Below are positions 956 through 61,769 of a DNA stretch of 63,764 bases, piece by piece. Below the pieces are notes generated by a model. It was not told the origin of the DNA and ran no database searches. It worked only from the letters and a program-made list of their open reading frames with translations. A program made the position numbers and the translations under genes. Source of the DNA: Knoellia subterranea KCTC 19937 (GTDB lineage: Bacteria > Actinomycetota > Actinomycetes > Actinomycetales > Dermatophilaceae); the NCBI RefSeq assembly GCF_000768685.1, contig NZ_AVPK01000013.1:1-63764 (forward strand), in the 5' to 3' direction. Positions within the stretch are counted from its first letter, which is position 1; every line of letters starts with the position of its first letter.

Positions 956-1510
956 TCAGAGGACGGTGATCTGGGGGGCGAACATCTCCATCGCACCCAG
1001 GGCCCGTTCGTGGGCCTCGGGGCTCGAGCCCGCACAGGCCTCCGCGACCACGCGTATGTTCGCACCCGCGTCACCGGCCGGCAGCGCCGTCGCGATGACG
1101 CAACAGTCGGTCGCGACACCGGCCAACGCCAGACGCGGCTGGTCGCCGATGACCGAACGCAGTTGCTGGCCCCACTTGCCGAAGGTCGGTTCGGTGACCA
1201 TGTGGTCGGCGAGGTGGGCGAGTTCCGGCACCACGGCATACAGGGGGTCCTCGTCGGGGACGAGCGCGAAGCCCCATTCGTCGTAATAGCTGGCCCACGA
1301 ACCACCGAGTCCCGGGTCCGCGACGAAGCGCGTCACGACAACCCGACCCGGGTATGCCGTTGCGAGACGTGCGATGCGCGGCACCGTCTCTGCCCACATC
1401 GGTGACCCCCACTGGCTCGTCGTGGGGTCGGCGAAGATCGCCTGCGGGTCGATGATGACGAGCCACTCGTCGTCGAGCGGCTCCACCGCCGAGACGTCGA
1501 GGCGGCTCAC
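956..1510 (-). CDS. isochorismatase-family cysteine hydrolase
   Basis: This is a 184-residue protein of the isochorismatase/cysteine hydrolase superfamily. The N-terminal LVIIDPQ carries the catalytic Asp, FGKW lies where the family Lys is expected, and the nucleophile Cys is in GVATDCCV. The GTG start (1508-1510) overlaps the stop of the upstream permease (GTGA), so the two are translationally coupled. Family members hydrolyse amides or vinyl ethers: N-carbamoylsarcosine, nicotinamide, ureidoacrylate, biuret. Linkage to an NCS1 nucleobase permease suggests catabolism of a purine or pyrimidine breakdown product. The exact substrate cannot be read from sequence. A longer open frame extends upstream, but it lies inside the permease gene. 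Confidence 0.85.
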   Translation of the reverse strand: MSRLDVSAVEPLDDEWLVIIDPQAIFADPTTSQWGSPMWAETVPRIARLATAYPGRVVVTRFVADPGLGGSWASYYDEWGFALVPDEDPLYAVVPELAHLADHMVTEPTFGKWGQQLRSVIGDQPRLALAGVATDCCVIATALPAGDAGANIRVVAEACAGSSPEAHERALGAMEMFAPQITVL

Positions 1511-3000
1511 GCCCCGGCCTCCTGCCGGGCCACCTTGCCCCGTCGGCCGAAGTAGGTGACGACGAATGACAGGAGGAGAGCGAGCAACACACCGAGGTTG
1601 GCGTAGGCGAAGGTCCCCTCCCAGTAGGAGCCCGCCGGGTCCTTGACGAACGTGCCCAGGCCGAGCGGGTCGAGGAGGAAGCCCTGCCAGTTGTTCCACG
1701 CCGCGTCGTCGGCGTAGCTGTTGACGACGAGGCCCCACCCGAGGACCGACGTGACGACCATCGTGCCGATTGAGAGCCAGTCGAAGGCTCCGTAGCGGCC
1801 GGAGGCATCGAAGAGGGCGTCCTCGTCGTAGTCGCGCTTGCGCAGCGCGATGTCGGCGATCATGATGCCCGCCCACGAGGCGAGCGGCACGCCGAGCGTG
1901 ATGAGGAACGACTGGAACGGCCCCAGGAAGTCCTCGGCGACGAAGACCACGAAGAACGTGCCGAGGGTGAGGATGACGCCGTCGACGAGGGCGGCAACTG
2001 GTCGGGGGAGGCGCACGCCCAGCGACAGCAGCGTGAGACCGGAGGAGTAGATACCGAGGACGGCGCCGGAGACGAGCGACAGGATCGCGGCGATGAGGAA
2101 CGGCACGAGCACCCACGTCGGCAGCAGACCGGCGAGGGTGCCGATCGGGTCCCCACCGATGCCATCGAGGACGTCCTTGTCGGACCCGGCGAGGGCCAGG
2201 CCGTAGCAGACGAGCAGCGCCGGGGCGAGGGCCCCGCCGAAGGTGTTCCAGCCGACGATGGCGGCTCCGCTGGCATCGCGACGCTGATAGCGGGACCAGT
2301 CGGCGGCGATGTTGATCCAGCCGAGCCCGAAGCCGGTCATGACCATGACGAGCGCGCCGATGGTGGCGCCGATGCCACCGGACGGGAGGGACGAGATCGC
2401 CGACCAGTCGAGGTGGGTGAACGTCATGATGATGTAGAGGATCGTGATGGCGCCGGTGATCCAGGTGAGGACCGACTGCATCCGCATGATGATGTGGTAG
2501 CCGGCGACGGCCGCGAGCACGATCATGGCCGCGACGACGATGGCTGCCACGATCTTGGTGCCGGTGCCTCCGCCCCACCCGAGGCGCTCGAAGATCGTCG
2601 AGGTCGCGAGGACGGCGAGGATCGCCAGGGCCGTCTCCCAGCCGATGGACACGAGCCACGAGATGACGCCCGGGACCTTCTGGCCCTTGACGCCGAACGC
2701 GGCACGCGACAGCACCATCGTGGGTGCCGAACCGCGCTTGCCCGCAATGGCGATGACACCGCAGAGAGCGAAGGACACGACCACGCCGATGACGGTCACG
2801 ACGACGGCCTGCCAGAAGGAGATGCCGAAGCCGAGGACGAACGCGGCATACGAGATGCCGAAGACGGACACGTTGGCGGCGAACCACGGCCAGAACAGGT
2901 CGCGCGGGGCCGCAGTTCGGTCCGCCTCGTCGATGATCTCGATACCGGTGGTCTCGACGCCGAGTCGCTTGGCAGCGTCGGCTGTGCGCACGTCAGTCAT
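1507..3000 (-). CDS. NCS1-family nucleobase:cation symporter (cytosine/purine permease)
   Basis: About 497 residues with roughly 12 hydrophobic segments. The conserved N-terminal approach (GIEIIDEADRTAAPRDLFWPW) and FAANVSVFGISYAAF helix are typical of CodB/PucI-like permeases that import cytosine, uracil, allantoin or related bases with a cation. It is the first gene of a two-gene operon with the isochorismatase-like hydrolase, which fits uptake followed by ring or amide cleavage. The start is chosen at the ATG of MTDVRTA; an in-frame ATG 12 bases upstream (3012) is possible, and neither has a good ribosome-binding site. Function by family; substrate unknown. Confidence 0.85.
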   Translation of the reverse strand: MTDVRTADAAKRLGVETTGIEIIDEADRTAAPRDLFWPWFAANVSVFGISYAAFVLGFGISFWQAVVVTVIGVVVSFALCGVIAIAGKRGSAPTMVLSRAAFGVKGQKVPGVISWLVSIGWETALAILAVLATSTIFERLGWGGGTGTKIVAAIVVAAMIVLAAVAGYHIIMRMQSVLTWITGAITILYIIMTFTHLDWSAISSLPSGGIGATIGALVMVMTGFGLGWINIAADWSRYQRRDASGAAIVGWNTFGGALAPALLVCYGLALAGSDKDVLDGIGGDPIGTLAGLLPTWVLVPFLIAAILSLVSGAVLGIYSSGLTLLSLGVRLPRPVAALVDGVILTLGTFFVVFVAEDFLGPFQSFLITLGVPLASWAGIMIADIALRKRDYDEDALFDASGRYGAFDWLSIGTMVVTSVLGWGLVVNSYADDAAWNNWQGFLLDPLGLGTFVKDPAGSYWEGTFAYANLGVLLALLLSFVVTYFGRRGKVARQEAGA

Positions 3001-3072
3001 GCTCGTGAGCATGTCAGATCACGGGCGGCATACGGTGCATGCCGCACGAGGAACGTCAGTGTGGATCAGGCG

Positions 3073-3267: not shown

Positions 3268-3524
3268 GGCGTGACCCCCTCGTGCGTCAGCGGGACGGCA
3301 TACCGGAAGGGACGGCCCCGAAGGGGTCATCCCAAGTCAGCTGCGGTCCCGGGAATCGTGTGTATGTCGTGGGGTCAACGCTACATCAGGCCGAGGTGTT
3401 TCCGCTCCACCGGTCGGACTTCTGGACGCTCCGTCGCAGAAACAACGAGGCAGGATGCAACCGTGGAGGGAGGCTGGGCGTAGATGCTCCGACAGCAGGG
3501 CACGACGCGACTGGAGGGGGAGAC

Positions 3525-4885: not shown

Positions 4886-4929
4886 CGTATGCCGGCCGCT
4901 CACCTCGCGAGGTGAGCGGCCGGCATACG
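4886..4929. terminator. 44-bp perfect palindrome, bidirectional terminator, built from two octamer copies
   Basis: Every base of 4886-4929 pairs about the centre 4907/4908, giving a 22-bp perfect arm. It sits between the convergent membrane-protein gene (ends 4871) and the dehydrogenase gene (ends 4953). Each arm begins with the dispersed octamer (GTATGCCG at 4887-4894, CGGCATAC at 4921-4928) followed by GCCGCTCACCT. Confidence 0.8.
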
Positions 4930-6226: not shown

Positions 6227-7288
6227 ATGCGCATCGGCTACAAGGCTTCGGCCGAACAGTTCGCCCCCGCCGAGCTCGCGGGCTACGCGGTCCTCGCCGA
6301 GGAGCTGGGGCTGGACTCGGTGACGATCTCGGACCACTTCCAGCCGTGGCGGCTCGAGGGCGGCCACGCGCCGAACTCCATCGCCTGGCTGTCGTGGGTC
6401 GCGGCGCGGACCGAGCGGGTGCTGCTCGGAACGTCGGTCATGACGCCGACGTTCCGCTACAACCCGGCGGTCGTGGCGCAGACGTTCGCGACCCTGGGCT
6501 GCCTCGCGCCGGGGCGCATCATGCTCGGCGTCGGGTCCGGCGAGGCGCTCAACGAGGTGGCCGTGGGCTCAGTCCCCGAGAGCGGCTGGCCCGAGTTCAA
6601 GGAGCGCTTCGGTCGCCTGCGCGAGTCGGTGCGGCTCATGCGCGAGCTGTGGACCAAAGACTCGGTCACGTTCGAGGGCGAGTACTACCGCACCGAGGAC
6701 GCGAAGATCTTCGATCGTCCGGACGTGCCGATTCCCGTGTACGTCGCCGCCGGTGGTCCGCTCGTCGCCCGGTATGCCGGCCGGTCCGGTGACGGTTTCA
6801 TCTGCACTTCCGGCAAGGGTCGCGAGCTCTATGCCGACCAGCTGATCCCGGCCGTGGCCGAGGGACGCGCGAAGGCTGGCCGGACCGAGGCCGATCCGTT
6901 TGACCGCATGATCGAGATCAAGGTGTCGTGGGACCCCGATGCCGACGCCGCTCTCGAGAACACCCGCTTCTGGGCGCCTCTCTCGCTCACGGCCGAGCAG
7001 AAGCACTCGATCCACAGCCCGGCCGAGATGGAGAAGGCCGCCGACGAGCTGCCCATCGAGCAGGTCGCCAAGCGCTGGATCGTCGCGTCTCGCCCGGAGG
7101 AGGTCGTGGAGTCCGTGCGCGAGTACACCGACCTCGGCTTCGACCACCTCGTCTTCCACGGGCCCGGGCACGACCAGGAGCGCTTCCTCCGTACCTTCAC
7201 CGAACAGGTCGTCCCCGGCCTGCGCGAACTCACCCCCGCCTCCCTCCCGACCGCACCCTCACCCACGCCCTCGAAGGACTCCGCCTGA
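6227..7288 (+). CDS. fgd: F420-dependent glucose-6-phosphate dehydrogenase
   Basis: A 353-residue luciferase-like TIM barrel that closely follows mycobacterial FGD. SDHFQPW lies at residues 35-41 (Asp36 and His37 match the catalytic pair), then [19 protein letters not shown] and [10 protein letters not shown] (Glu106). Further on are [21 protein letters not shown]-like [18 protein letters not shown] and [11 protein letters not shown]. It oxidises glucose-6-phosphate to 6-phosphogluconolactone while reducing coenzyme F420, which implies that the organism makes F420. The ATG at 6227 is preceded by GGGAGAGG. Its stop overlaps the next start (ATGA), heading a translationally coupled run. Tyr/Ala codons near residue 185 use the TATGCC octamer (6772). 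Confidence 0.93.
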
Positions 7289-8579: not shown

Positions 8580-9559
8580 CCACGGGCATGGGCGAGGTGA
8601 CAGCGGCGGGTGACGGGCCGGCATACCGGGCCTCTGACTGGACGCTCGAGGCGCTCCTCAGCGCCAAGGGTGACCAGCGGATCTCCATCGTCATCCCTGC
8701 CAAGAACGAGGAAGCCACCGTCGGCGAGGTTGCCGCACGCATCATTGCGGACCTGGGCGGGCTCGTCGACGAGGTCGTCGTCATCGACTCCGACTCGACC
8801 GACGCAACGGCGGAGGTCGCCCGGTCCGCGGGCGCAAAGGTGTTCTCCGCCAGGGAGATTCGCGCCGACCTAGGTTCGGTGCCGGGCAAGGGCGAGGCGC
8901 TGTGGAAGTCGCAGTTCGTCACGACGGGCGACGTCTTGGTCTTCGTCGATGCGGACCTCATCGACTGGGGGACGCACTTCGTCACTGGGCTCCTCGGACC
9001 GCTCCTCACGCGCGATGAGGTGCGACTGGTCAAAGCCATCTATGACCGGCCGATGATCGACGCGACCGGGCGTGAGGAGGAGTCGGGCGGTCGGGTCACC
9101 GAGCTCGTTGCCCGCCCGTGGCTCGCGCTGCACCGGCCCGAGCTTGCAGGTCTCGTCCAGCCGCTCTCGGGTGAGTGGGCGATCCGCCGTTCGACGTTCG
9201 CGAGCTTCGAGGTGCCGGTGGGCTACGGGGTGGAGATTGCAGCCGTGCTCGACACCGCTGACCGGTTCGGGGTCGACGCCATCGCGCAGGTCGACCTGGG
9301 GCTGCGCACCCACCGTCACCACCGGCATGACACGCTCGGCCTCATGGCAGTCCAGGTCCTTGCCGCGGCTGAGCGCCGTCGAGCCGCGGCGCCCGGGGGC
9401 GGTTCGCAGGACGCCTCGGTCACGTTGCGGCAGTATGCGCGCGGGCCGGAGGGCTTCGAGCCCCGGGTGAGCGAGGTCGGCGTGGGGGAGCGGCCTGCGG
9501 GCGTGACGGTCGGTATGCCGGCCCACGCAGAGCGTGGGACCCGCGCGGAGTCCCGATGA
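8576..9559 (+). CDS. gpgS: glucosyl-3-phosphoglycerate synthase
   Basis: About 327 residues, GT81/GT2-like. RISIVIPAKNEEATVGEV is the nucleotide-binding start, VVVIDSDSTDAT follows, PGKGEALWKS matches the family, and VFVDADLI holds the metal-binding DxD. It transfers glucose from a nucleotide sugar to 3-phosphoglycerate, the first step to glucosylglycerate and methylglucose lipopolysaccharide. The GTG at 8576 overlaps the previous stop (GTGA); an ATG 12 bases later is an alternative. It lies directly beside a folP2-like gene, as in mycobacteria. The C-terminal tail beyond about residue 290 is low-complexity and carries an octamer at 9513. Confidence 0.88.
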   Translation: MTTGMGEVTAAGDGPAYRASDWTLEALLSAKGDQRISIVIPAKNEEATVGEVAARIIADLGGLVDEVVVIDSDSTDATAEVARSAGAKVFSAREIRADLGSVPGKGEALWKSQFVTTGDVLVFVDADLIDWGTHFVTGLLGPLLTRDEVRLVKAIYDRPMIDATGREEESGGRVTELVARPWLALHRPELAGLVQPLSGEWAIRRSTFASFEVPVGYGVEIAAVLDTADRFGVDAIAQVDLGLRTHRHHRHDTLGLMAVQVLAAAERRRAAAPGGGSQDASVTLRQYARGPEGFEPRVSEVGVGERPAGVTVGMPAHAERGTRAESR

Positions 9560-10428: not shown

Positions 10429-11105
10429 TCACCGATGTCGTCGTCGTCCCGGGAGCGCTGTTGTTGCTGCCGGAGTATCAGGGGCGTGTCGCCGCTGCTC
10501 CGGGGTTGCTCGAGTCGTGTGTTGGTGCGGTGCGCGACGCGGTCGCATCGGCGCACCACGTCGTCGTCGTGCACGGCACCGACCGTGAGCCGCGCAGCGC
10601 CCGCCCGGCAGCAGGTCTGCGGGTGGCCGACCACCTGCTCGGAGCCACCCACGAGAACTTCGACGTCGAGCATGTCGGCGTGGCGTGGGACGCGTCCGTT
10701 GCCGACTGCATCGCGCTCGGCCGAGCTGTCGCCGACCGTGAGGATGAGCGCTCGGGCAACCGGGCAACGACGCTTCTGGTGGTGGCCGACGGCTCGGCTC
10801 GTCGCACGGAGAAGGCGCCGGGGCACTTCGACGAGCGGGCCGCTGCTGTTGATGACTCCATCGTCGGCGCCGTCCGGGACGCGGCCGACGGAGGGCTCGA
10901 CCGGCTCCTCGACCTCGACCCGACGCTCTGCGCTGACCTGCTCGTGACCGGCCGTGCACCCCTTCAGGTCCTCGCTGCCGCAACCGGCGAAGCACTCGGC
11001 GGAGGGCACGAAGGTGAGCGGACGGCATACGAGGTCGTGTCGTGCGAGGTGAGCGACCCGTTCGGGGTGCTCTACGTCGTCGCCCACCTGCGCGCCCGCG
11101 CCTGA
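10425..11105 (+). CDS. class III extradiol dioxygenase subunit B (LigB)-like protein
   Basis: A 226-residue protein. It matches the actinobacterial LigB-like proteins in having VPGALLLLPEY at the N-terminus, HVVVVHG, TTLLVVADGSARRTEKAPGHF (His in the family position), LLVTGRAPLQVLAAA and DPFGVLYVVAHL at the end. The GTG start (10425-10427) overlaps the folP2 stop. The family looks structurally like ring-cleavage dioxygenases, but the cellular substrate is not established. It is the sixth and last gene of the coupled run that begins with fgd. Confidence 0.75.
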   Translation: MITDVVVVPGALLLLPEYQGRVAAAPGLLESCVGAVRDAVASAHHVVVVHGTDREPRSARPAAGLRVADHLLGATHENFDVEHVGVAWDASVADCIALGRAVADREDERSGNRATTLLVVADGSARRTEKAPGHFDERAAAVDDSIVGAVRDAADGGLDRLLDLDPTLCADLLVTGRAPLQVLAAATGEALGGGHEGERTAYEVVSCEVSDPFGVLYVVAHLRARA

Positions 11106-43702: not shown

Positions 43703-43705
43703 GGC

Positions 43706-45232: not shown

Positions 45233-45264
45233 GCCCACCCAGGCGGACAAAGGAGATGAGCGTT

Positions 45265-47646: not shown

Positions 47647-47659
47647 ACGCCAAGCAAGC

Positions 47660-48106: not shown

Positions 48107-48109
48107 CGA

Positions 48110-48508: not shown

Positions 48509-48525
48509 ATCCTCAGCCTACGACC

Positions 48526-48557: not shown

Positions 48558-48563
48558 CTGCTG

Positions 48564-50279: not shown

Positions 50280-50867
50280 TCAGAGGCCGAACGCTCCGCC
50301 CTCGATCAGGATGACGAGGCCGAGCACGATGAGGACGAGCGGGAACAAGATGTGCTCCCAACGCTCCAGCACCTCTGCGATCGGTTTGCGGGTGGCCACG
50401 AACTTGGCGGCAAGGACGAGAACGACTACCAGGGCCAAGAACACGACGCAATAGGCCACGAGGGCGCCGGTGCCGACGGTGAGGAAGACCGGCACGTAGA
50501 CCCCGATGTTGTCTCCACCGTTGGCGAAGGTGACTGCGGCCACGGTGAGGGCGCTGATCGGCCTGTCCGCGACGCTGTCGTCGTCGTCCCCGTTGCGCCA
50601 CACCTGCCAGGCGGCGTAGCCCCCAAGCAGCAGTGGGATGAGGCCGAAGTACGGGATGGCGTCGTCGGGAAGGAACAGCCCCGCTCCGAAGGTCACCGCG
50701 AGTGAGGCGAGGAGGATGCCACCGAAACCGAGGTACTGCCCGACGACGATTTTGGTGGTGGTACCTCGTTGCCCGGCTCCGCGCGCGAAGAACAGGGACA
50801 GAACGATGATGTCGTCGATGTTGGTGACCAAGAACAGGCCAATCGCCTGCAACGCGGAGATGATCAA
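50280..50867 (-). CDS. cadD: CadD family cadmium resistance transporter
   Basis: A 195-residue membrane protein with five to six helices. ATNIDDIIVLSLFFARG-like VTNIDDIIVLSLFFARG is the CadD signature, GQYLGFGGILLASLA follows, and TFANGGDNIGVYVPVF is the second conserved loop with Asp and Asn. CadD proteins export or exclude Cd2+. The start ATG overlaps the lspA stop (TGA 50864-50866), and it is the last gene of the cmtR-cadA-lspA-cadD operon. Confidence 0.88.
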   Translation of the reverse strand: MIISALQAIGLFLVTNIDDIIVLSLFFARGAGQRGTTTKIVVGQYLGFGGILLASLAVTFGAGLFLPDDAIPYFGLIPLLLGGYAAWQVWRNGDDDDSVADRPISALTVAAVTFANGGDNIGVYVPVFLTVGTGALVAYCVVFLALVVVLVLAAKFVATRKPIAEVLERWEHILFPLVLIVLGLVILIEGGAFGL

Positions 50868-51511
50868 GTCCCTGTCTCCTTCGTTTCTTCGGTGTCGACG
50901 CTCTTCTTAGTTTCGCCTCGAGAGGACTGCCCGTGCTCGATGGCTGCGACGGCTGAGCTCCGATCGCCGGCGAACGGCAGGTTGGTCGTCATGGAGTGCC
51001 TGTCATGACTCGTGTGGGTGGCCGGGTGGTCCTCCATCGGCTCCGGTTTATTCGTCGTACGTTCGGGGCGGGTGTGCAGCAGGGCGATCACGATGAAGCC
51101 GGTGATGAGGAAGGTGTCGGCGAGGTTGAAGGTGGGCCACCAGCCGGTATGCAGGTAGTCGGTCACCACGCCGTCGCGGGCGCGGTCGACGACGTTGGCG
51201 ACGGCCCCGCCGATCACGGCGCCGCCGGCGGCCCTTTCGACCCACCCCGCCTGGGGCGCCCTGTGCCAGGCATACCCCATAAGCGCTACCGCGATGGCCG
51301 CAGTGACGGTCACGATTACTGCTGCGGGCAGCGCGTTGCCCATGCTGAAGGCCACGCCGGAGTTGTAGGCCAGCTGCAGCTGCAGCAGTCCGAGGTCAAC
51401 CGAGGAGTCGGCGAGCCGGACCTCTGATGCTGCCTTGGCGGCCAAGTCGATCGCGGCAACCGTCACCGCCGCGAGCAGGACCGTCGTGCGTCCGGAGCGG
51501 GCTCGCGTCAT
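50864..51511 (-). CDS. lspA: signal peptidase II (island-borne) with hydrophilic C-terminal extension
   Basis: A 215-residue protein. About 160 residues match LspA: [56 protein letters not shown]. The catalytic aspartates are in NVVDR and NLAD. About 50 residues rich in Glu, Thr, Lys and Ser follow the last helix, beyond the usual length. LspA removes lipoprotein signal peptides. A second copy in cadmium islands is well known, though its benefit is not clear. The ATG overlaps the cadA stop. Confidence 0.88.
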   Translation of the reverse strand: [215 protein letters not shown]

Positions 51512-53502
51512 GGCCCTGCCGGACCCACCGCTGACCTCGCCGTGGCTTCCGCCGTCACCGCGGCCGCCGTGGGCGTGGCCGCGGGTGCCGGAGGAAGCGG
51601 GCGGACGCGGCCGGCGCGTACCCCGTTGCCGATCACAAAGATCTCGGCGATCTCATGGACCAGTACCACGGCGGCGAGGCCGAGCACGCCGAGGGCGGCG
51701 AGCGGGATCAGGATGGCGATCAAGCCCAGGGAGAGGCCGACGTTCTGCAGCATGATCGACCTGGCGCGGCGGGCGTGGGTCAGGGTGTGCGGCAGGTGGC
51801 GCAGGTCCTCACCCATGAGGGCCACGTCGGCGGTCTCGATGGCGACGTCGCTGCCCATGGCGCCCATGGCGATTCCGACGTCGGCGGTTGCCAAGGCGGG
51901 GGCGTCGTTGACTCCGTCGCCGACCATCGCGGTCGGGGTGCTCTCACGGAGCCGGCGGATGATGGCCGACTTGTCCTCGGGGCGGAGGTCTGCGTGGACA
52001 TCAGTGATGCCGGCCTGGGCGGCCAGGGCGGCGGCGGTGCGTTCGTTGTCGCCGGTGAGCATCGCGACCTGGTAGCCGCTGGCACGGAGCCGGGCGACGA
52101 CCTCGGCTGCCTCGGGGCGCAGGTCATCGCGGACCGCGACGGCCCCGATCACGGCCCCGTCGTACTCGACCAGCACTGCAGTGGCGCCCGCTTCCTGCAT
52201 GGCAGTGACGGGCCCGGCGAGCTCACCGGCGGGGATCCAGTCGGGTCGGCCCAAACGGGCCGGCCGGCCGTCGATGGTGCCGGTGAGACCGGCGCCGGTG
52301 ACGGCCTCGACGTCCTGGGCGTCACGGTGGTCGGTGACGGCGGCCAGGATCGCGCGGGCCAGGGGATGCTCACTGCGGGACTCCAGGGCGGCCGCGATGT
52401 CGAGGACTTGCTCCCGGGTCTGGCCGGGAATGGTGGCGACCTCGACGACGGCGGGTTCGTTGCGGGTCAAGGTGCCGGTCTTGTCCAGGGCGACGGCACG
52501 GATCCGGCCCAGCGCCTCCAGTGCGGCGCCGCCCTTGACCAGGGCGCCGATGCGGCTGGCGGCACCGATGGCGGCGACGACGGTGACCGGCACGGAAATC
52601 GCCAGCGCGCACGGGGAGGCGGCGACCAGGACCACCAGGGCGCGTTCGATCCAGGTCGCGGGGTCACCGAGCAGACTTCCGGCGATCGCGATGACGGCGG
52701 CCAGGACCATGATGCCGGGCACCAGGGGTTTGGCGATGCGGTCGGCCAGCCGCTGGGCGTCGCCCTTGCGGGACTGCTCGGCCTCGACGATGTTGACGAT
52801 TCGGGCCAAGGAGTTGTCCTCGGCGGTGGTGGTGACCTCGACCTCAAGGACGCCGGTGCCGTTGATGGAGCCGGCGTACACGGTATCCCCGGCCCCGGCC
52901 TCGACCGGTACGGACTCCCCGGTGAGGGCTGAGACGTCCAGGGCGGTGCGGCCGGTGCGGATGACGCCGTCGGTGGCGACGCGCTCGCCGGGCCGGACCA
53001 GGAGCAGGTCTCCGATTGCGAGCTCTGCGGGGGCCACGGTGACCTGGGTGCCGTCGCGGAGGATGGTGGCCTCGGCCGGGACCAGGGACAGCAGTGCGCG
53101 CAGGCCGCGGCGGGTGCGGGCCACGGCGTACTCCTCCAGGCCCTCGCTGATGGAGTAGAGGAAGGCCAGCATGGCAGCCTCGGCGACCTCGCCGAGGATG
53201 ACCGCGCCGACCGCAGCGATTGTCATCAGGGTGCCGACGCCGATCTTGCCCTTGGACAGCCGCTTCAGGGTGCTGGGCACGAACGTCCAGGCCCCCAGCG
53301 CCAGCGCGATGGCGTTCAGGCCGGTCACCACGCCCCGGGAGGCGTCGTTGAGGTCGGCAATGAATCCCGCGATCAGGAAGAGTCCGGCGAGGGCAGCGAA
53401 CCGCAGCTCGCTGACCTCCCACAATCGCTCCGGCTCGTGCTCCTCCAGCTCGTCGTCGTCGGTGCGGGGTTCGTCGTGGCCGCAGCCGCAGGCGTCCGTC
53501 AC
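51508..53502 (-). CDS. cadA: heavy-metal P1B-type ATPase (Cd/Zn/Co type)
   Basis: A 664-residue transporter. The N-terminus is short, with CGCGHDEP and acidic/His residues instead of a full HMA domain. The core has TGES, AASPCALAISVPV (SPC rather than CPC), ALDKTGTLT, SEHPLARAI and [11 protein letters not shown]. The last helix reads VLVHEIAEIFVIGNGVR. SPC and a helix-8 His-Glu are features of P1B-4 (Co/Zn/Cd) ATPases, but HEIAE differs from the usual HEGST, so the substrate is uncertain. Its start overlaps the regulator's stop. Domain and context indicate divalent-cation export. Confidence 0.88.
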   Translation of the reverse strand: MTDACGCGHDEPRTDDDELEEHEPERLWEVSELRFAALAGLFLIAGFIADLNDASRGVVTGLNAIALALGAWTFVPSTLKRLSKGKIGVGTLMTIAAVGAVILGEVAEAAMLAFLYSISEGLEEYAVARTRRGLRALLSLVPAEATILRDGTQVTVAPAELAIGDLLLVRPGERVATDGVIRTGRTALDVSALTGESVPVEAGAGDTVYAGSINGTGVLEVEVTTTAEDNSLARIVNIVEAEQSRKGDAQRLADRIAKPLVPGIMVLAAVIAIAGSLLGDPATWIERALVVLVAASPCALAISVPVTVVAAIGAASRIGALVKGGAALEALGRIRAVALDKTGTLTRNEPAVVEVATIPGQTREQVLDIAAALESRSEHPLARAILAAVTDHRDAQDVEAVTGAGLTGTIDGRPARLGRPDWIPAGELAGPVTAMQEAGATAVLVEYDGAVIGAVAVRDDLRPEAAEVVARLRASGYQVAMLTGDNERTAAALAAQAGITDVHADLRPEDKSAIIRRLRESTPTAMVGDGVNDAPALATADVGIAMGAMGSDVAIETADVALMGEDLRHLPHTLTHARRARSIMLQNVGLSLGLIAILIPLAALGVLGLAAVVLVHEIAEIFVIGNGVRAGRVRPLPPAPAATPTAAAVTAEATARSAVGPAGP

Positions 53503-53888
53503 GGTGCTACTCCCTCGGTGGCGGTGGGGGTGGTCTCGGGGTGGGTGTCGGCGGGGCCGTAGGTGGGGCAGAGCTCGACGGCCTCGCCGGTCAGGGCGAG
53601 CAGCTTCTCGGCCGCGCCGAGCAGGTCCATCAGCTCCGGGTGGGCGATGGAGTAGAACATCTGCCGCCCCTCTGGCCGACCGACGATCAGACCGCAGTCA
53701 CGTAGGCAGGCCAGATGGCCTGACACGGTGCCTTGGGCCAGATCGAGGGCCTTGGTGAGGTCCACCACCCGCCGCTCCCCGTGGGCGAGCTGCCGAACGA
53801 TCGCCAACCGGTTGCGATCTGCGAGGCCGTGGAACAGGGCAGCGCCGCGCCGCAGCCCTGGGTCCGCCTGCGCCGTTGTCATTGCCAT
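53499..53888 (-). CDS. cmtR: ArsR/SmtB-family metal sensor (CmtR-like)
   Basis: A 129-residue winged-helix repressor: RNRLAIVRQLAHGERRVVDL and LAQGTVSGHLACLRDCGLIVGRPEGRQMFYSI. Cys61 and Cys65 in the recognition region (ACLRDCG) plus Cys107 (ELCPTYG) match the three Cd/Pb ligands of mycobacterial CmtR (Cys57, Cys61, Cys102). It should release the operator when Cd(II) or Pb(II) binds. Starts at 53888, or at 53882 two codons later. First gene of the minus operon; divergent from the MmpL gene. Confidence 0.87.
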   Translation of the reverse strand: MAMTTAQADPGLRRGAALFHGLADRNRLAIVRQLAHGERRVVDLTKALDLAQGTVSGHLACLRDCGLIVGRPEGRQMFYSIAHPELMDLLGAAEKLLALTGEAVELCPTYGPADTHPETTPTATEGVAP

Positions 53889-53892
53889 ACGC

Positions 53893-53919
53893 CGATGATA
53901 GCGTCCATCCTATTGATCG
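53893..53919. promoter_or_regulatory. candidate CmtR operator dyad
   Basis: GATGATAG (53894-53901) and CTATTGATC (53910-53918) form an imperfect AT-rich dyad in the 70-bp gap between cmtR and the MmpL gene. It is a likely binding site and core promoter for one or both directions. Confidence 0.45.
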
Positions 53920-53959
53920 TCCAGTTCCGCTGACAGCGGCCACCTTAAAGGGTCCCACG

Positions 53960-56227
53960 ATGGAGAAAGCAGCTGTGAACCTCGAGCGGAGCGGAAAGCG
54001 CGAGCTGGAGACGGGGCCGGGGCCGCTCCTGCGGTTGCTGCTCCGTCGCCGCGGACTGGTGCTGTTGGCGGCGCTGGTGCTCATGATCCTGGCCGGGGTG
54101 GCCGGGCGGGATGCCGGGGACAAACTGACCTCCGGCGCGTACCTGGACCCCTCAGCACAGTCGCAACGTGCGGCCGCCGTTCTGAGCCAGGACTTCCCCG
54201 GCGGGCCGCCGAACCTGGTCCTGATCGCCCAGGCGAACACCGGCACCGTCGACTCCCCGGCAACCGTGGAGGCGGGGTCCAAGCTCGCCACGCAGCTGGC
54301 CGAGACACCCGGCGTTGGAGGGGTGCACTCCTACTGGATGACCCCCAACCCCTCGCTGCGCGCGGCCGACGGCCGGTCCGCGCTGATCGCACTTCAGCTC
54401 ACCGGCGGCGAGCACGCCGCACAGAAGACCGCGGCGAGGATCATCGACGACCTCGAGGAAGACTCAAGCGCGTTGCGGGTAGGTGCCACCGGGCCCGCCG
54501 CGGTCGGTCTCGCCGTCGACGAGCAGGCCGAGAGCGATCTAGTCTCCGCGGAGATGGTGACGTTGCCGATCACCCTGCTCGTGCTGCTGCTGGTCTTTGG
54601 ATCCGCGATCGCGGCTGGCCTGCCACTGTTGGTGGGTGCCGGCGCGGTGGTCGGCACTCTGGCGATGCTCGGCCTGCTCGCAGAGGCCACCACGATGTCG
54701 ACCTACGCACTGAACCTGACCACCGCGCTCGGGTTCGGGCTGGCGGTGGACTACAGCCTCTTCCTGGTCACACGGTTCCGCGAGGAACGTCGCGCCGGCC
54801 GCACCGTCGACTCCGCTGTGGTCATCACGGTGCGCACTGCCGGCCGCACCGTGGTGTTTTCCGCGCTTACGGTGGCGCTCTCGCTCTCGGCGCTCTTGCT
54901 GTTCCCGATGCCCTTCCTCCGCTCGCTCGGCTGCGCCGGCATCGCGGTCACCGCGCTGGCCGCCCTGACCGCGGTGGTCCTGATCCCGGCGATGCTGGCC
55001 CTGGTCGGGCACCGGCTCGACCGGGCCGACGTGTTCGCCCCGATCCGCCGGCGCATCACCCGTCGCCGCGCCGGTGTCGGGGAGGATCAGCTGGCCTGGC
55101 ACCGGATCGCAGCCCTGGTGATGCGGCGCCCCCTCCTGATCCTGGTCTCGGTCAGCGCCCTGCTCATCCTACTGGTGCTGCCCTTCGTCGGGGTCCGGTT
55201 CGGCCTGCTGGATCACCGGACCCTCCCGGCCGACCACCCCGTCGCCGACACTGCGGAACGGCTGGCCCGGGACTTCCCCGCAGCGGCCGAGGACCCGATC
55301 ACCGTGGTCCTTCCCGGCCACGACGCCCCCAGCGCCGCCACTGACGAGCAAATGGTCACGTACGCCTCGCGCCTGTCCAACCTGCCAGGCGTGACCGCGG
55401 TTGAGACCGCCACCGGCCGCTACATCGACGGCCGAACCGTACCGGCGAGGAGCCCAGAAACCGAGGCACTCGGCAGCCGCTACACCTCGGCGGCCGGGAC
55501 CTGGATGGCCGTCTCCACCTCAGCCACCGACCCCGCTGACGCCGGCACTGTCGTACGAGACATCCGCAAGCAGCCGGCACCAGAGGAAGCGCTGGTCGGC
55601 GGGTCCGCGGCCACCCTGGTCGATGCCACCGACACCATCGCCGACCGGCTGCCCTGGGCACTAGGCGTCATCGGGCTGTCCACCTTCGTCCTACTGTTCC
55701 TGTTCACCGGGTCGCTGCTCATTCCGGTGAAGGCGATCGTGACCAACCTGCTCAGCCTCAGCGCCACCTTCGGAGCCCTGGTCTATGTGTTCCAAGAAGG
55801 CCACCTGCGCTGGCTGGTCGGCGACTTCACCCCGACCGGCACGCTAGAAACCACGTTGCCAGTGCTGATCTTCTGTATCGCCTTCGGCCTGTCGATGGAC
55901 TACGAGGTCTTCCTGCTGTCCAGGATCACCGAGGCCCACCGCAACGGCGCCACCACCACCGAAGCCGTCGCCCAAGGTCTGCAACGCACCGGGGGACTGA
56001 TCACCGCCGCAGCCGCCATTCTGGTCACCGTCTTCTTGGCCCTCGCCGCCTCGAACCTCACCGCCCTGAAGGTGATCGGCGTGGGCCTCACCCTCGCCGT
56101 CGTCCTCGACGCCACCATCGTCCGCACCCTCCTGGTCCCCGCAATCATGCGGCTAGCCGGCGAGGCCAACTGGTGGGCCCCCGCGCCGCTACGGCGCCTT
56201 CACAAACGGCTTGGACTCACCGACTAA
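53960..56227 (+). CDS. MMPL/RND family transporter
   Basis: A 755-residue membrane protein with about 12 helices in two homologous halves: an N-terminal helix, a large extracytoplasmic domain (residues 50-190), five to six helices, then the same order again. ALNLTTALGFGLAVDYSLFLVTRFREE and IFCIAFGLSMDYEVFLLSRITEAHR contain the paired Asp-Tyr proton-relay motifs of MmpL. It resembles lipid or drug exporters, not the CusA metal pumps. AAAGGG precedes the ATG at 53960; a GTG at 53975 is also possible. Divergent from cmtR, so it may be metal-responsive, with an unknown substrate. Confidence 0.85.
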   Translation: MEKAAVNLERSGKRELETGPGPLLRLLLRRRGLVLLAALVLMILAGVAGRDAGDKLTSGAYLDPSAQSQRAAAVLSQDFPGGPPNLVLIAQANTGTVDSPATVEAGSKLATQLAETPGVGGVHSYWMTPNPSLRAADGRSALIALQLTGGEHAAQKTAARIIDDLEEDSSALRVGATGPAAVGLAVDEQAESDLVSAEMVTLPITLLVLLLVFGSAIAAGLPLLVGAGAVVGTLAMLGLLAEATTMSTYALNLTTALGFGLAVDYSLFLVTRFREERRAGRTVDSAVVITVRTAGRTVVFSALTVALSLSALLLFPMPFLRSLGCAGIAVTALAALTAVVLIPAMLALVGHRLDRADVFAPIRRRITRRRAGVGEDQLAWHRIAALVMRRPLLILVSVSALLILLVLPFVGVRFGLLDHRTLPADHPVADTAERLARDFPAAAEDPITVVLPGHDAPSAATDEQMVTYASRLSNLPGVTAVETATGRYIDGRTVPARSPETEALGSRYTSAAGTWMAVSTSATDPADAGTVVRDIRKQPAPEEALVGGSAATLVDATDTIADRLPWALGVIGLSTFVLLFLFTGSLLIPVKAIVTNLLSLSATFGALVYVFQEGHLRWLVGDFTPTGTLETTLPVLIFCIAFGLSMDYEVFLLSRITEAHRNGATTTEAVAQGLQRTGGLITAAAAILVTVFLALAASNLTALKVIGVGLTLAVVLDATIVRTLLVPAIMRLAGEANWWAPAPLRRLHKRLGLTD

Positions 56228-56487
56228 CCACCCGATCACACGGAACGGAGAAGCATCATCCCCGGTGCGCCATACTCACCTGGCGGTGCGCTCGGTAACC
56301 CGTCCGGACGGATTGCGACTGCCTCCGCTAAATCCCTGCAGGCCGATCGACCACTCTGGTTCGTTTGCGACAATCTCAGAATGACCCCGACCGACACCTT
56401 CTCGAAGCGCGGAGACGCGTTCGAATTGCCCGCTGGTAGCGATCCCGCTGCGGCAGCGTTGCCCCTCGTCCCTTCGGGAGCCTGCGC
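56228..56487. other. 260-bp stretch with an open but start-less frame running into resA
   Basis: From the MmpL stop to 56491 one frame is open for 87 codons and ends in a TGA overlapping the resA ATG (ATGA). It contains RIATASAKSLQADRPLWF and MTPTDTFSKRGDAFELP. A tiny gene (ATG 56381, 36 residues) or the 3' end of a truncated native gene is possible. In related operons a phosphoglycerate-mutase gene sits here, but I do not recognise its motifs. This is the likely right junction of the island. Confidence 0.35.
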
Positions 56488-57108
56488 ATGACCCGTCACA
56501 TCACTCGGTATGCCGTGCCGCGCCGCAGTGTCGTGGTCGTTGCCTCCGCGTTTGCTCTGCTAACGATTGGAGGCTGCTCGTCGGACCCCAACTCCATCGC
56601 TGAGCAGGCCAAGCGGGGCGACCAGAAGGGCTACATCGCAGGCAACGGTGCGATCGAGCAGATCCCGGTCTCAAAGCGGCTCAAGCCCATCACCCTCGTG
56701 GGCACCACCTTGGATGGCACGAACTGGTCAAGCACCTCAGCCCGGGGCAAGGACATCGTCGTCATCAACCTCTGGGGCTCGTGGTGCCCTCCGTGCATCA
56801 CCGAGATCCCTGACCTCGAGAAGGTCTGGACCGAAGTCCAGGCGGCCAAGAAGCCCGTGCAGTTCATGGGGATCGACTTCCGCGAATCCCCCGAACGCGG
56901 GCGGGCGTTCGTCTCAACGCAGAAGATGACCTACCCCAGCCTGAGCGATGAATCTGGCGTCCTCATCCTTGCCTTCGGTCGTCAAGCCCCGACGAGCCCG
57001 CCCTCCACGCTCATCCTCGACCGTGAGGGGCGGGTCGCCGCCCGCGCCAGCGGCGTCGTGTCGGCCGCGACACTTCGGGGCCTCATCGACGACGTACTCA
57101 AGTCCTGA
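56488..57108 (+). CDS. resA: TlpA/ResA-like thiol-disulfide oxidoreductase lipoprotein
   Basis: A 206-residue protein. A signal peptide ends at a lipobox (TIGGC, Cys30). The thioredoxin domain has INLWGSWCPPC (Cys100, Cys103), MGIDFRESPERG and a Pro-rich cis-Pro region (TSPPSTLILDREGRV). ResA keeps apocytochrome c cysteines reduced outside the membrane so that heme can attach. First gene of resA-ccdA-resB-ccsB. An octamer (56508) lies in its signal sequence, marking the return of host-type DNA. Confidence 0.9.
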   Translation: MTRHITRYAVPRRSVVVVASAFALLTIGGCSSDPNSIAEQAKRGDQKGYIAGNGAIEQIPVSKRLKPITLVGTTLDGTNWSSTSARGKDIVVINLWGSWCPPCITEIPDLEKVWTEVQAAKKPVQFMGIDFRESPERGRAFVSTQKMTYPSLSDESGVLILAFGRQAPTSPPSTLILDREGRVAARASGVVSAATLRGLIDDVLKS

Positions 57109-57111: not shown

Positions 57112-57861
57112 GTGACCGACACCATCGCCTCCGGGGCACTACCCATCGCCGTCCTCATCGCGGCCCTCGCCGGGCTCGTGTCCTTCGCGTCGCCGTGTGT
57201 GCTGCCGCTCGTACCGGGCTTCCTTGGCTACGTCACCGGAATCAGCGACACCGCGCTGGAACAGCGTTCACGCGGCCGGATGGTGCTCGGCGCGTTGCTG
57301 TTCGTCCTCGGCTTCGCCGCCGTCTTCGTCCTGGGGTCGATCTTCATCGCCACCCTGGGCCGCTCGCTGACCGTGCATCGTGAGCTGCTCATGCGGGTCG
57401 GTGGGGTGTTCATCATCCTCATGGGCCTGGTCTTCCTCGGAATCGGTGCGGGCGCAGGCTCACAACGTCAGTTCGCCCCGTCGTGGCGCCCGCGGACCGG
57501 GCTCCTGGGGGCACCCCTGGTCGGGGCCGTCTTCGGGCTCGGCTGGGCTCCCTGCACCGGCCCAACCCTCGCCGCCGTCATGACCCTCTCGGCCTCGACC
57601 ACGAACCCGAGCACTGGTCGCGCGGTGACTCTCGCCACGGCATACGCCCTCGGTCTGGGGCTGCCATTCATCCTCGCCGCGGCCGGGATCGAGCGCTTCG
57701 GGCGAGTCGCCGGCTGGGTCCGACGGCACCATCGCCTGATTCAGTACGTCGGTGGCGGGCTGCTCATCGCCGTCGGGCTGCTCCTGCTGACCGGCGTGTG
57801 GGAAGCCCTCACCCGCTGGCTGCAGGCTGAGCTCGTCTCTGGCTTCGTGGTGGTGATCTGA
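57112..57861 (+). CDS. ccdA: cytochrome c biogenesis protein CcdA
   Basis: A 249-residue six-helix protein. FASPCVLPLVPGFLGYV in helix 1 and GLGWAPCTGPTLAAVM in helix 4 hold the two redox Cys that pass electrons from cytoplasmic thioredoxin to ResA. A GTG start 3 bp after resA; its stop overlaps the resB ATG. The last two thirds have a decayed homologue at 42,009-42,526. Confidence 0.93.
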   Translation: MTDTIASGALPIAVLIAALAGLVSFASPCVLPLVPGFLGYVTGISDTALEQRSRGRMVLGALLFVLGFAAVFVLGSIFIATLGRSLTVHRELLMRVGGVFIILMGLVFLGIGAGAGSQRQFAPSWRPRTGLLGAPLVGAVFGLGWAPCTGPTLAAVMTLSASTTNPSTGRAVTLATAYALGLGLPFILAAAGIERFGRVAGWVRRHHRLIQYVGGGLLIAVGLLLLTGVWEALTRWLQAELVSGFVVVI

Positions 57862-59450: not shown

Positions 59451-60430
59451 CCCACGAGACCCTGGCGAGCTACGCCAACGTCAGCCTGTACTCCGCCATG
59501 GTGGTCCTCACCCTCTCCATGCTTGGGTATGCCGTCTACCTGGCAGGTCTGCTTCCCGCACGTGACGCTGCGGTGGAGTCTGCCGATGCGCAGGACCGCG
59601 AGCTCGTCGCCGCTGGCGGTGGCACGGTGTCCAGCGATGCGTCGTCGGATGGTGCCGCGAGCCCGACACCGACCGACTCCGAGGTGCCCCTGCGGGCGCG
59701 CAAAGCGGGTGGGGTCGCCCAGACGCTCGCGATCCTGGGCACGTTGCTGCTGTTCGCCTCGGCGGCTCTGCGCGGTGCGTCGGTGGAACGCTGGCCGCTG
59801 GGCAACATGTTCGAGTTCGGGGTGGCCTCGGCCCTGTTCACGATGGTGGTCTTCGTCGTGTGGGGTCTGCGCCGCGACCTGCGCTGGCTCGGGATCTTCG
59901 TCGTCGCCCCGGTGCTGGTTCTGCTCGGGCTGGCCAACACGGTCTGGTACACCGAGGCCGCAGAACTCATGCCGTCGCTCAAGAGCATCTGGCTCGTCAT
60001 CCACGTCACCGTCGCGACGATCTCGGTCGGGCTCTTCGCCGTCGGGTTCGTCGTCGCTCTCCTCTATCTCGCCAAGGACCGGTTCGGTGAGAGTCGCGGC
60101 GTGCTGCGGGCAGTGCCCGACTCCCGCACTCTCGAGCGCCTCGCCTACTCGTTGCACATCATCGCGTTCCCGCTGTGGACGTTCACCCTCATCGCCGGCG
60201 CCATCTGGGCCCGGCAGGCCTGGGGTTCCTACTGGAACTGGGACCCCAAGGAGGTCTGGACCTTCATCATCTGGGTCGTCTATGCCGCCTACATGCATGC
60301 CCGGGTGACGCGCGGCTGGCGACGCCAGTCGGCGACCTGGATCGCGGTTGCGGGCTTTGCCTGCATCATCGTCAACTACTCCATCGTCAACATGTATTTC
60401 GTGGGCATGCACTCCTACTCTGGCCTCTGA
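59447..60430 (+). CDS. ccsB: cytochrome c biogenesis protein CcsB (ResC)
   Basis: A 327-residue membrane protein with a GTG start overlapping the resB stop. WGSYWNWDPKEVWTFIIW is the heme-handling WWD motif, flanked by conserved His in IHVTVATISVG, LHIIAFPLW and VGMHSYSG. It exports heme and, with ResB, attaches it to CxxCH of cytochromes c. A Ser/Thr/Pro-rich insertion (residues about 60-80) is common in actinobacteria. Octamer at 59527. Confidence 0.93.
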   Translation: MTHETLASYANVSLYSAMVVLTLSMLGYAVYLAGLLPARDAAVESADAQDRELVAAGGGTVSSDASSDGAASPTPTDSEVPLRARKAGGVAQTLAILGTLLLFASAALRGASVERWPLGNMFEFGVASALFTMVVFVVWGLRRDLRWLGIFVVAPVLVLLGLANTVWYTEAAELMPSLKSIWLVIHVTVATISVGLFAVGFVVALLYLAKDRFGESRGVLRAVPDSRTLERLAYSLHIIAFPLWTFTLIAGAIWARQAWGSYWNWDPKEVWTFIIWVVYAAYMHARVTRGWRRQSATWIAVAGFACIIVNYSIVNMYFVGMHSYSGL

Positions 60431-60974
60431 CATGGCGATGGTGCGTTGTCGATCCTGAGACCAGCCCAACGGTCAGCAGGGCGGTGAACCCGGCGACGCC
60501 GAGGATGGGTTGGGGAACCCGAACGCAGCAGCTTGGTCGGTGTTCACGACCGAGACGCAGGACAGCAGAACAGTCCCAGGACTCGCAGAGGCCACCCACG
60601 TCGACATCAAAGACCTCACCATGAACCGTCAGATCCCTCTGCCCGACGGGGTCCGCGCCGTAGTGGCGATTGGAGCGAACGCCTTGGTGGACGCCATCCG
60701 TGCAGCCGCCGACAGCGCAAACTGGCTCCCCAGCACCACCACGACACAAGCGCGCCGCGGGCGAGCGCCGGTCCGCACCGCTAGTTCCGACGCCGCGCTC
60801 ACGAGTCTCCGATATGCGCGCGGTCGGTCGTGGCCGGTAGCGGTATCACCGAAGTTCATCGCGCTGGGTGCGTGAGGCCCTCCGCCCGCTGCCGGGCGCG
60901 CAGCCAGCCTCAGACGTTGCTCTCGTTCCAGCCCTGCGCCGACCCTCTGCCCGTGCGCGGGGTTCGAGGTGAGG
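60431..60974. other. 544-bp stretch with at most one doubtful small gene
   Basis: A plus-strand frame from 60510 (or ATG 60621) to 60875 encodes up to 121 residues, including MNRQIPLPDGVRAVVAIGA and LVDAIRAAADSANWLP. It has no clear ribosome-binding site and no recognised domain. No hairpin or RNA was found. It may be a decayed gene between ccsB and SURF1. Confidence 0.3.
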
Positions 60975-61769
60975 TCAGTAGTCCTCCTCGTCCCAAATGC
61001 GGACCTTCTTCGGCTTGGCCACCCGGTCGGTGTCCTCGTCCCGCAGCTCGCGGCGGATCCCGAGCCAGATGAGCAGCAGGCCCAGCGGCAAAGTCATCCA
61101 CCACTGGAACGCGTACGCCTGGTGCGGTCCGAGGCTGCGGTCCGGGTCCTCGAGACGGTCCGGTCGCGGCGCGGAGGTGCCGCCGGCCGTGCGCTCGGTG
61201 TCGAGCACGACGTAGCCGTCGAGCACCTCTGTGTCCCACGCGCGCTCGACGTCGGGGACGGCGATGCTGGCCACCTGGCCGCGGGGGAGCGTCTTTCGCT
61301 GGGTTGTCTCGCCGGGGCGAACCCAGCCGACGACCGTGACCTCACCCGCGGGCGCGGCCGCCACGTCCGGTGCCACGGCGGCGCCCCGGTCCGAGTTCTC
61401 CACCCAGCCCCGGTCGACCACGACAGTTCGTCCGTCCGGCAGCGTCAACGGCGCGAGGACCTCGTAGCCGAAGACGCTGTTGTTCGGACGGTTACGCACG
61501 AGCAACTGCTCGCCGGCATACGTGCCGGTCGCGGTGACCTTGGTCCAGTCCTTGCGCGAGCGTTCGACCGGACGGTCGGACAGCACGTCGGTGACCGGGA
61601 TGGGATCGGCGCGGTAGTGCGCGTCAAGGAGGGCGTTGCGCTCGACCTTGAACTCGTGGCGCGCGTACTGCCAGTGACCCAGCTGGTAGGCGAGGACTGC
61701 GTACAGCAGGGCGAGGGCCAGTGCACCCAGCCAGCGCGGGGTGAACAGACGCCGTGACACGGCCGTCAC
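60975..61769 (-). CDS. SURF1 family cytochrome oxidase assembly protein
   Basis: A 264-residue protein with a helix near each end: WLGALALALLYAVLAYQLGHWQYAR and YAFQWWMTLPLGLLLIWLGIR. Between them are the SURF1 motifs VTATGTYAGEQLLVRNRPN, GYEVLAPLTLPDGRTVVVDRGWV and VVGWVRPGE. SURF1 helps insert heme a into cytochrome c oxidase. A GTG start. Near ccsB, which fits a respiratory neighbourhood. Octamer at 61514. Confidence 0.9.
   Translation of the reverse strand: MTAVSRRLFTPRWLGALALALLYAVLAYQLGHWQYARHEFKVERNALLDAHYRADPIPVTDVLSDRPVERSRKDWTKVTATGTYAGEQLLVRNRPNNSVFGYEVLAPLTLPDGRTVVVDRGWVENSDRGAAVAPDVAAAPAGEVTVVGWVRPGETTQRKTLPRGQVASIAVPDVERAWDTEVLDGYVVLDTERTAGGTSAPRPDRLEDPDRSLGPHQAYAFQWWMTLPLGLLLIWLGIRRELRDEDTDRVAKPKKVRIWDEEDY

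Follow-up and report, generated by a model that had tools for sequence, protein, structure and literature searches.

An over-represented octamer with dialects in Knoellia subterranea and its Gram-positive relatives: a putative DNA-uptake sequence

The window analysed here is a stretch of 63,764 bases from contig NZ_AVPK01000013.1 of Knoellia subterranea KCTC 19937, a member of a genus that has been placed in the Intrasporangiaceae. For one protein of the window, the nearest named records come from Knoellia (seven, at 78-93% protein identity) and from Janibacter sp. HTCC2649 (one, at 90%). It is strewn with copies of one octamer, GTATGCCG, which is non-palindromic in that it is not its own reverse complement. 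An exact count gives 44 copies, 22 on each strand, the first starting at 1234 and the last occupying 61514-61521, and thereby bears out a first-pass annotation made from the letters of the window. The excess claimed there is real as well, although its size had been understated: dinucleotide shuffles of the window hold a mean of 1.04 and a maximum of 7 copies, and none of 100 shuffles reaches 44, which makes the enrichment about 42-fold over roughly one expected copy rather than 15-20 fold. The features of the locus include a hairpin whose two arms are the copies at 4887 and 4921 (-52.2 kcal/mol for 75 nt), a second hairpin, enclosing the copy at 17606-17613, directly 3' of a tRNA-Phe gene (17640-17716, minus strand), and an island-like stretch with genes of the metal-resistance type (Table 1). 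The two hairpins show that the terminator-like spots noticed earlier, at 4886-4929 and 17586-17624, are real.

The excess is a property of the whole genome (3,566,056 bases in 33 contigs), and the genome-wide count is not near expectation. It holds 2,444 copies, compared with 54 (22 + 32) of the same word reversed; the copies divide into 1,233 forward and 1,211 reverse, totals that cannot show polarity because the orientation of contigs in a draft is arbitrary. In a 464-kb sample, consisting of the window and 20 further stretches of the genome, 296 copies are found versus 6.3 expected from dinucleotides. The core is sharply defined: of the 24 words that differ from it by one mismatch, 22 occur in this sample at 0-1.7 times the first-order expectation, and the only two that are raised are CTATGCCG (22 copies, 4.2x) and GTAGGCCG (40 copies, 4.0x). 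No orientation bias is seen in the window (22:22) or in a 300-kb contig stretch (86:101), where GC skew is weak; the origin and terminus were not located, and a polarity switch within that stretch is possible. Chi and the FtsK-orienting polar sequences (KOPS) are also non-palindromic genome-wide words of 8 bp, but they are strand-polar, whereas GTATGCCG is without strand bias in the stretches tested. The exclusion of polar motifs in the first-pass annotation therefore stands.

The word is not a by-product of protein sequence. Genes were called with a codon-usage script, by which 12.5% of the 464-kb sample is intergenic. The 296 copies comprise 210 in called genes, in several reading frames, 83 between genes and 3 on gene edges, in line with the earlier observation that all frames and intergenic sites are used; their density is 1.4 per kb between genes versus 0.5 per kb within them. 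The genic copies are read as Tyr-Ala (nnG-TAT-GCC-Gnn) 110 times, as Ala-Tyr (nCG-GCA-TAC) 70 times and otherwise 30 times. When Tyr-Ala is flanked by G on both sides, it is written TAT-GCC in 110 cases and TAC-GCC in 16, while elsewhere TAC-GCC is preferred (13 versus 52 in the context n..n, 2 versus 20 in G..n, and 20 versus 48 in n..G, TAT-GCC being given first). Likewise, Ala-Tyr after CG is written GCA-TAC 70 times and GCC-TAC 35 times, compared with 6 and 147 times elsewhere. Because the codon preference flips only in the word-forming context, the word dictates the codons and not the reverse. Codon-pair usage, of which Tyr-Ala had been named in advance as the case to examine, is thus ruled out as the cause of the excess, and with it a protein-coding explanation.

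Nor can the intergenic copies be terminators only, since they are frequent between divergent (1.23 per kb), tandem (1.83 per kb) and convergent (1.48 per kb) genes alike. The view that the word merely forms part of terminators, or of some family of repeats, would agree with the hairpin pairs and the tail of the intergenic copies described below. However, an element confined to terminators is ruled out by the genic majority, by the codon choice bent to keep the word and by the copies between divergent genes, and the genic copies have little in common beyond the 8-bp core, without the long shared unit of a repetitive extragenic palindromic (REP) sequence or a miniature inverted-repeat transposable element (MITE). 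We accord this explanation next to no probability.

Copies that lie close together are arranged as inverted repeats. In the 464-kb sample there are 19 inverted and no direct pairs at distances of up to 60 bp, compared with 11 pairs, half of them direct, expected from random placing; up to 80 bp, 22 of 23 pairs are inverted. Many of these pairs are intergenic and fold strongly, as at 4887/4921. Intergenic copies also share a directional 3' tail, which extends the core to a motif of about 19 bp, GTATGCCGtCCGCtCaCCT. At least 8 of the 11 tail bases match at 19 of 55 unpaired intergenic copies versus 15 of 8,380 random intergenic places, and at 18 of 213 genic or edge copies, in a test that is partly circular because the tail was derived from this same genome. 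The tail recurs in two genomes of the same genus, G005 and G006, at 5 of 32 unpaired intergenic copies versus 5 of 2,400 random places, although these sites may in part be orthologous to those of the host. The pattern GTATGCCGNCCGCNCNCCT, present at 7 of the 44 window copies, occurs 134 times in the host genome, 17-142 times in eight genus mates, and 43 times in G029, and none of the remaining 48 genomes has more than 10; its reversed form is absent from the host and from every other genome searched. The flanks of 8 and 16 sites in G028 and G033 suggest that other genera use other tails.

These pairs and tails bear on the idea that the word is a Chi-like recombination signal for an end-resection nuclease. 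Chi is an over-represented, non-palindromic word of 8 bp that varies between clades, all of which applies to GTATGCCG, and a signal of this kind would also account for the conservation at orthologous sites reported below. The even strand split in the window and over 300 kb (with the origin not located), the inverted arrangement of every host pair within 60 bp and an 11-base intergenic tail, which would not be expected of Chi, all speak against it, and we regard it as decidedly unlikely.

The word is missing from two long stretches, one of them a gap in the window that the first-pass annotation does not mention. Random placing of the window copies gives a gap as large as 42312-56507 in only 0.15% of 2,000 trials (p 0.0015), and it is because of this gap that the coefficient of variation (CV) of spacing in the window reaches 1.48. 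Its genes encode two heavy-metal P-type ATPases, a DUF305 protein, a pyridine nucleotide-disulphide oxidoreductase, a signal peptidase II and an MMPL protein. Similarity to parts of the stretch was found in 92 plasmid records; among the 15 of these that were listed, none covers more than 17%, and those from actinobacterial plasmids (Rhodococcus, Mycolicibacterium, Streptomyces and Gordonia) show 75-79% identity over 14-17%. The word-rich positions 1-20000 of the window, used as a control, match 12 plasmid records, nine of them at tRNA genes. The 300-kb stretch has a single gap of 15.1 kb (p 0.016; L011:9842 to L012:4975, or G000:C1:209842-224975), with a GC content of 0.625 versus about 0.69 and with glycosyltransferase, polysaccharide pyruvyl transferase and nucleotide-sugar genes of the kind involved in surface polysaccharide. 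Judging by their content, these two gaps, which are the longest of the window and of the 300 kb, look acquired or island-like.

Table 1. Copies of GTATGCCG, each located by exact match, and the motif-free stretch in the window.
Feature	Position	Strand	Remark
Copy	1234..1241	-	
Copy	1352..1359	+	
Copy	2844..2851	-	
Copy	3026..3033	-	
Copy	3296..3303	-	
Copy	4887..4894	+	3' tail GTATGCCGNCCGCNCNCCT; left arm of hairpin 4887-4928
Copy	4921..4928	-	3' tail; right arm of hairpin 4887-4928
Copy	6772..6779	+	
Copy	8619..8626	-	
Copy	9513..9520	+	
Copy	11023..11030	-	3' tail
Copy	12453..12460	+	
Copy	13301..13308	-	partial tail
Copy	13416..13423	+	
Copy	14614..14621	+	
Copy	14986..14993	-	
Copy	15217..15224	-	partial tail
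Copy	15624..15631	+	
Copy	17606..17613	-	3' tail; in hairpin 3' of tRNA-Phe
Copy	18567..18574	+	
Copy	19016..19023	-	
Copy	19959..19966	+	3' tail
Copy	21212..21219	-	
Copy	21276..21283	+	near-full tail
Copy	26594..26601	+	3' tail
Copy	27399..27406	-	
Copy	29024..29031	+	
Copy	31560..31567	+	
Copy	33381..33388	+	inverted pair with 33419; inside called gene
Copy	33419..33426	-	inverted pair with 33381
Copy	34148..34155	+	
Copy	34354..34361	-	
Copy	35637..35644	+	
Copy	36665..36672	-	
Copy	36827..36834	+	
Copy	38192..38199	-	3' tail
Copy	39965..39972	+	
Copy	40431..40438	-	
Copy	41333..41340	+	
Copy	42304..42311	-	last before motif-free stretch
Motif-free stretch, 14.2 kb, island-like	42312..56507		no GTATGCCG copy; metal-resistance-type genes
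Copy	56508..56515	+	
Copy	57638..57645	-	
Copy	59527..59534	+	
Copy	61514..61521	-	

Where the word is present, it tends to be kept. The first-pass annotation had recommended looking at orthologous loci, and for this comparison the 300-kb host stretch was set against sequences of 200 kb from G005 and G006, which were also compared with each other; DNA identity in the aligned parts is 82-84%. The aligned sites are intact in 85 of 103, 71 of 82 and 76 of 85 cases in the three genome pairs, versus 33%, 33% and 37% for other permutations of the same letters, a control matched for letters and not for coding frame. The comparison omits sites for which no gap-free alignment was possible (84 of 187, 105 of 187 and 35 of 120), some of which lay beyond the compared partner stretch.

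Among the genomes searched, the word is in excess in one family only, and not throughout it. A genome was called word-on when it had at least 300 copies and at least 2.5 times as many as of the reversed word. By this rule the 149 family genomes divide into 85 that are word-on, spread over 31 of 53 genera, and 64 that are word-off, with bimodal copy counts and only eight genomes between 300 and 1,000. No excess is found in 273 genomes (completeness at least 80%) from 19 other families of the order, where the maximum is 177 copies beside 135 of the reversed word in the same genome. Nor did any word of comparable strength appear when 17 genomes of other families in the order were sampled by one 20-kb stretch each. 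Among the word-off genomes of the family, inspection by eye of 13 of the 64, over 20-40 kb each, revealed no alternative word as strong, with the proviso that a weak or longer word could be missed at this scale; the strongest had 9 copies versus 0.3 expected (G031) and 12 versus 0.7 (G018). Two word-off genomes stand apart from their genera: G150 has 37 copies where its mates in genus g56 have 1,251-1,660, and G097 has 19 where its mates in genus g25 have 1,062-3,681.

Several relatives use variants that differ from GTATGCCG at one position or relax one. GGATGCCG occurs 3,949 times in G033, 3,816 in G024, 3,838 in G093, 4,480 in G130 and 3,619 in G144. Two genomes carry both words, G073 with 2,195 copies of GGATGCCG and 1,217 of GTATGCCG, intermingled within the same contigs, and G107 with 2,099 and 1,189. 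The other 142 genomes have 241-1,336 copies of GGATGCCG, a high background in which the reversed GGATGCCG is frequent too. G011 and G034 have a word with a relaxed sixth position, GTATGNCG; the counts for C, T, G and A at this position are 30, 10, 10 and 20 in 38 kb of G011, and 20, 3, 9 and 20 in G034. In addition, GAATGCCG accompanies GTATGCCG in G020 (12 copies in 20 kb) and GTATGCGG is found in G027 (11 copies in 40 kb), both in small samples. As putative dialects, GGATGCCG and GTATGNCG are well supported, being backed by larger data than GAATGCCG and GTATGCGG.

In a tree of up to five proteins encoded around comEC, covering 23 of 28 genomes (for the other five, not enough of these proteins were available), the GTATGNCG genomes G011 and G034 are sisters (support 1.0), as are the GGATGCCG genomes G024 and G033 (0.997). 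Word-off genomes appear at several places, some nested among word-on ones. This distribution fits one gain followed by change and loss, and several gains are possible. At contig ends of the GGATGCCG genome G130 (L182 and L191) there are blocks with pure GTATGCCG, whose best match outside the genus is the word-on genome G096 at 87%, other genera reaching about 70%. The blocks are 100% identical in G144 (G144:C129), a genome 83% complete that matches a control region only at E 2.6e-5, and part of them is repeated within G130. Import is no likelier a source than contamination, misassembly or a mobile element; given the identity in G144 and the repetition in G130, we did not use this dialect mosaic as evidence of imported DNA.

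The first-pass annotation had offered three classes for the word: a DNA-uptake word, a word of the type of the cyanobacterial HIP1 (highly iterated palindrome 1), or the site of some other DNA-binding or methylating protein. The first fits best and the last ranks lower. HIP1 resembles GTATGCCG as an octamer of singular over-representation, but the HIP1 type is unlikely because HIP1 is palindromic and GTATGCCG is not; moreover, we know of no hairpin pairing or directional tail for HIP1. A cytoplasmic DNA-binding protein that organises, segregates or marks the chromosome, with a specificity drifting between genera, would be consistent with the strand symmetry, the genome-wide spread, the conservation at orthologous sites, the relaxed single positions in relatives and the absence from two island-like stretches, as well as with an uptake machinery that does not track the word (see below). 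It would be odd, however, for a chromosome organiser to be off in 64 of 149 family genomes; a density of about one copy per 1.5 kb with random spacing is unlike macrodomain or segregation sites, none of which, to our knowledge, has such properties; and inverted hairpin pairs are a known layout of uptake sequences. We consider such a protein an unlikely explanation, albeit a credible one. A mark kept for a methyltransferase or defence system to label self DNA is very improbable in our view. Some modification systems do use non-palindromic sites of 6-8 bp, but such sites are usually neutral or avoided, not enriched about 45-fold, and neither the tail nor the inverted pairing has an evident role in methylation.

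Likelier than any of these is a DNA-uptake sequence (DUS), and we think that GTATGCCG is probably the core of one, with dialects, in Gram-positive bacteria. This reading fits best because of the inverted hairpin pairs of the host genome, the extended asymmetric flank, the dialects within one family and the absence from two island-like stretches. Taken together, strand symmetry, hairpin pairs, a one-sided flank, one-letter dialects, bilingual genomes and absence from island-like DNA come close to the fingerprint of an uptake sequence, and we know of no other class of genomic word that combines them all. The layout is DUS-like and membership of the class is putative; competence, an uptake bias and a receptor are inferred parts of the explanation.

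Two families, both Gram-negative, have described uptake sequences, the Pasteurellaceae and the Neisseriaceae (PMC1939737, PMC7811141, both in excerpt). In the excerpted account (PMC3630211), the neisserial DUS is a short non-palindromic word with thousands of copies per genome, has dialects inside a single family, two of them in one genome, and forms inverted pairs in intergenic stem-loops; all of these features are paralleled here. Inverted DUS pairs are further described there as lying at terminators. The words themselves are unrelated, the present hosts are Gram-positive, PilM is missing from most family genomes including the host, where a Tad-type locus is present instead, and no ComP-like receptor was found. 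The uptake signal sequence (USS) of the Pasteurellaceae is likewise a short core with weaker flanking bases, and its abundance is similar, with 1,465 cores of 9 bp in H. influenzae according to the available text of PMC7811141. Unlike the USS, GTATGCCG has a GC-rich flank that is strong only between genes, and hosts, word and machinery are unrelated. None of the papers listed in a literature search with the letters of GTATGCCG is related to it, and none found in searches on uptake sequences in Actinobacteria or Actinomycetota is about such a word, both judged by title; the earlier remark that no description of the motif was known is upheld for the literature searched. A study of Veillonella, found in a search on uptake signal sequences in Gram-positive bacteria, screened for a candidate word and, in the part available, settled on none.

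The host has candidate parts of an uptake machinery. Its genome encodes ComEC, with Competence and metallo-beta-lactamase domains, and a ComEA-like protein, with SLBB and helix-hairpin-helix domains. It also has a Tad-type locus, in which a T2SSE ATPase scores above the TIGR03819 cut-off and a T2SSF-like protein just below that of Pfam; a small protein with DUF4244 at this locus resembles a Flp pilin. Micrococcus luteus, an actinobacterium outside the word-carrying family, offers a comparison. There, the tad genes are required for transformation (PMC4322843, in excerpt), as is the comEA/EC locus (PMC4322843, PMC6370729, in excerpt), and the text available of PMC4322843 mentions no uptake word. 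Since ComEC, ComEA and Tad proteins are present here and needed in M. luteus, the host could be competent, though machinery alone would be no proof. The Tad-type locus has two further features of note. It includes a protein with a sortase domain (Pfam) and a neighbour similar to it by eye (L123:10710-12635), a pair with no match in 17 other Tad loci compared, and it adjoins a gene for a helicase with MrfA Zn-binding and HRQ1 winged-helix domains (L123:14336-17176), for which a link to the processing of DNA at the pilus is possible.

A number of observations weigh against an uptake sequence. The presence of ComEC, ComEA and Tad is not discriminating, because word-off relatives have them too: of 58 relatives, 57 have ComEC and all have TIGR03819 matches (52 over the cut-off), with the word on or off. 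In a one-way look-up of host genes in 17 Tad and 27 ComEC neighbourhoods, no gene occurs in all word-bearing and no word-off neighbourhoods, and no receptor candidate that separates word-on from word-off genomes emerged among ComEC, PilM, the Tad-type ATPase and neighbouring genes. PilM, of type IV pili, is present in 2 of 36 family genomes and absent from the other 34, including the host. The one-mismatch words of GTATGCCG are scarcely raised, whereas decaying uptake sites are expected to leave such words, as in Haemophilus. Close pairs of GGATGCCG are mostly direct in G130 (9 inverted and 15 direct in 160 kb, L183-L190), and those of G024, G033 and G073 number 4 inverted and 2 direct, 3 and 0, and 2 and 2, respectively. 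Copy density is only modestly lower outside alignable regions (0.58, 0.59 and 0.48 per kb) than inside (0.66 per kb), the outside portion including DNA beyond the compared partner stretch. Even spacing, which has been claimed for known uptake sequences (PMC1939737, in excerpt), was not found over the 300 kb, where the CV is 0.91 versus 0.93 for random placing. Finally, we found no report of uptake or transformation for Knoellia or the Intrasporangiaceae in a literature search that covered neither subscription papers nor preprints.

Two genes were considered as correlates of the word and rejected. One lies beside comEC (L124:2307-2918), and its product looks like the lipid enzyme PlsY. The gene occurs in 9 word-bearing neighbourhoods and in none that is word-off, but the word-on genomes G011, G012, G019, G025, G028 and G034 lack it, and because of these absences its pattern likely reflects shared ancestry. 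The other encodes a second Tad-type ATPase (E about 1e-98), which by eye does not track the word: among the matches listed, it is present in word-off G030 and G035 and not in word-on G003, G011 and G029.

If GTATGCCG is the core of an uptake sequence, the following mechanism would apply. In naturally competent cells, a surface DNA receptor would bind double-stranded DNA that carries the word, and would bind it best in the form of about 19 bp, GTATGCCGtCCGCtCaCCT. The receptor would probably be a Tad/Flp minor pilin, or some other protein of the cell envelope, working with ComEA and ComEC. Because such a receptor binds word-carrying DNA, uptake and recombination would favour the DNA of close kin over foreign DNA. 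Through the preferential import of word-bearing alleles, the word would accumulate on both strands wherever coding and regulation allow it, with the fewest constraints in intergenic DNA and hairpin stems. Newly acquired islands would gain it only slowly. Changes in receptor specificity would give rise to dialects in different genera, and loss of the uptake system would let the word fade.

For the family as a whole we lean, by no wide measure, towards a fuller proposal, namely that these Gram-positive bacteria (Intrasporangiaceae, going by the named relatives) may have an uptake language of their own, independent of those of the Neisseriaceae and Pasteurellaceae. It would consist of an asymmetric 19-bp signal with an obligatory 8-bp core, read by a surface receptor linked to the Tad/Flp pilus or to ComEA; its dialects would number up to five, some genomes would be bilingual, and several lineages would have lost it. 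If this is true, uptake sequences would have arisen independently a third time, here in high-GC Gram-positives that use another type of pilus, which would indicate that preference for self DNA evolves repeatedly. At least 149 genomes, with the word on, off, switched or in bilingual state, would then be available for tracing the rise and loss of such a code. It would also open a route to a sequence-specific DNA receptor in a monoderm, and these environmental bacteria might be transformed by putting the word on the DNA.

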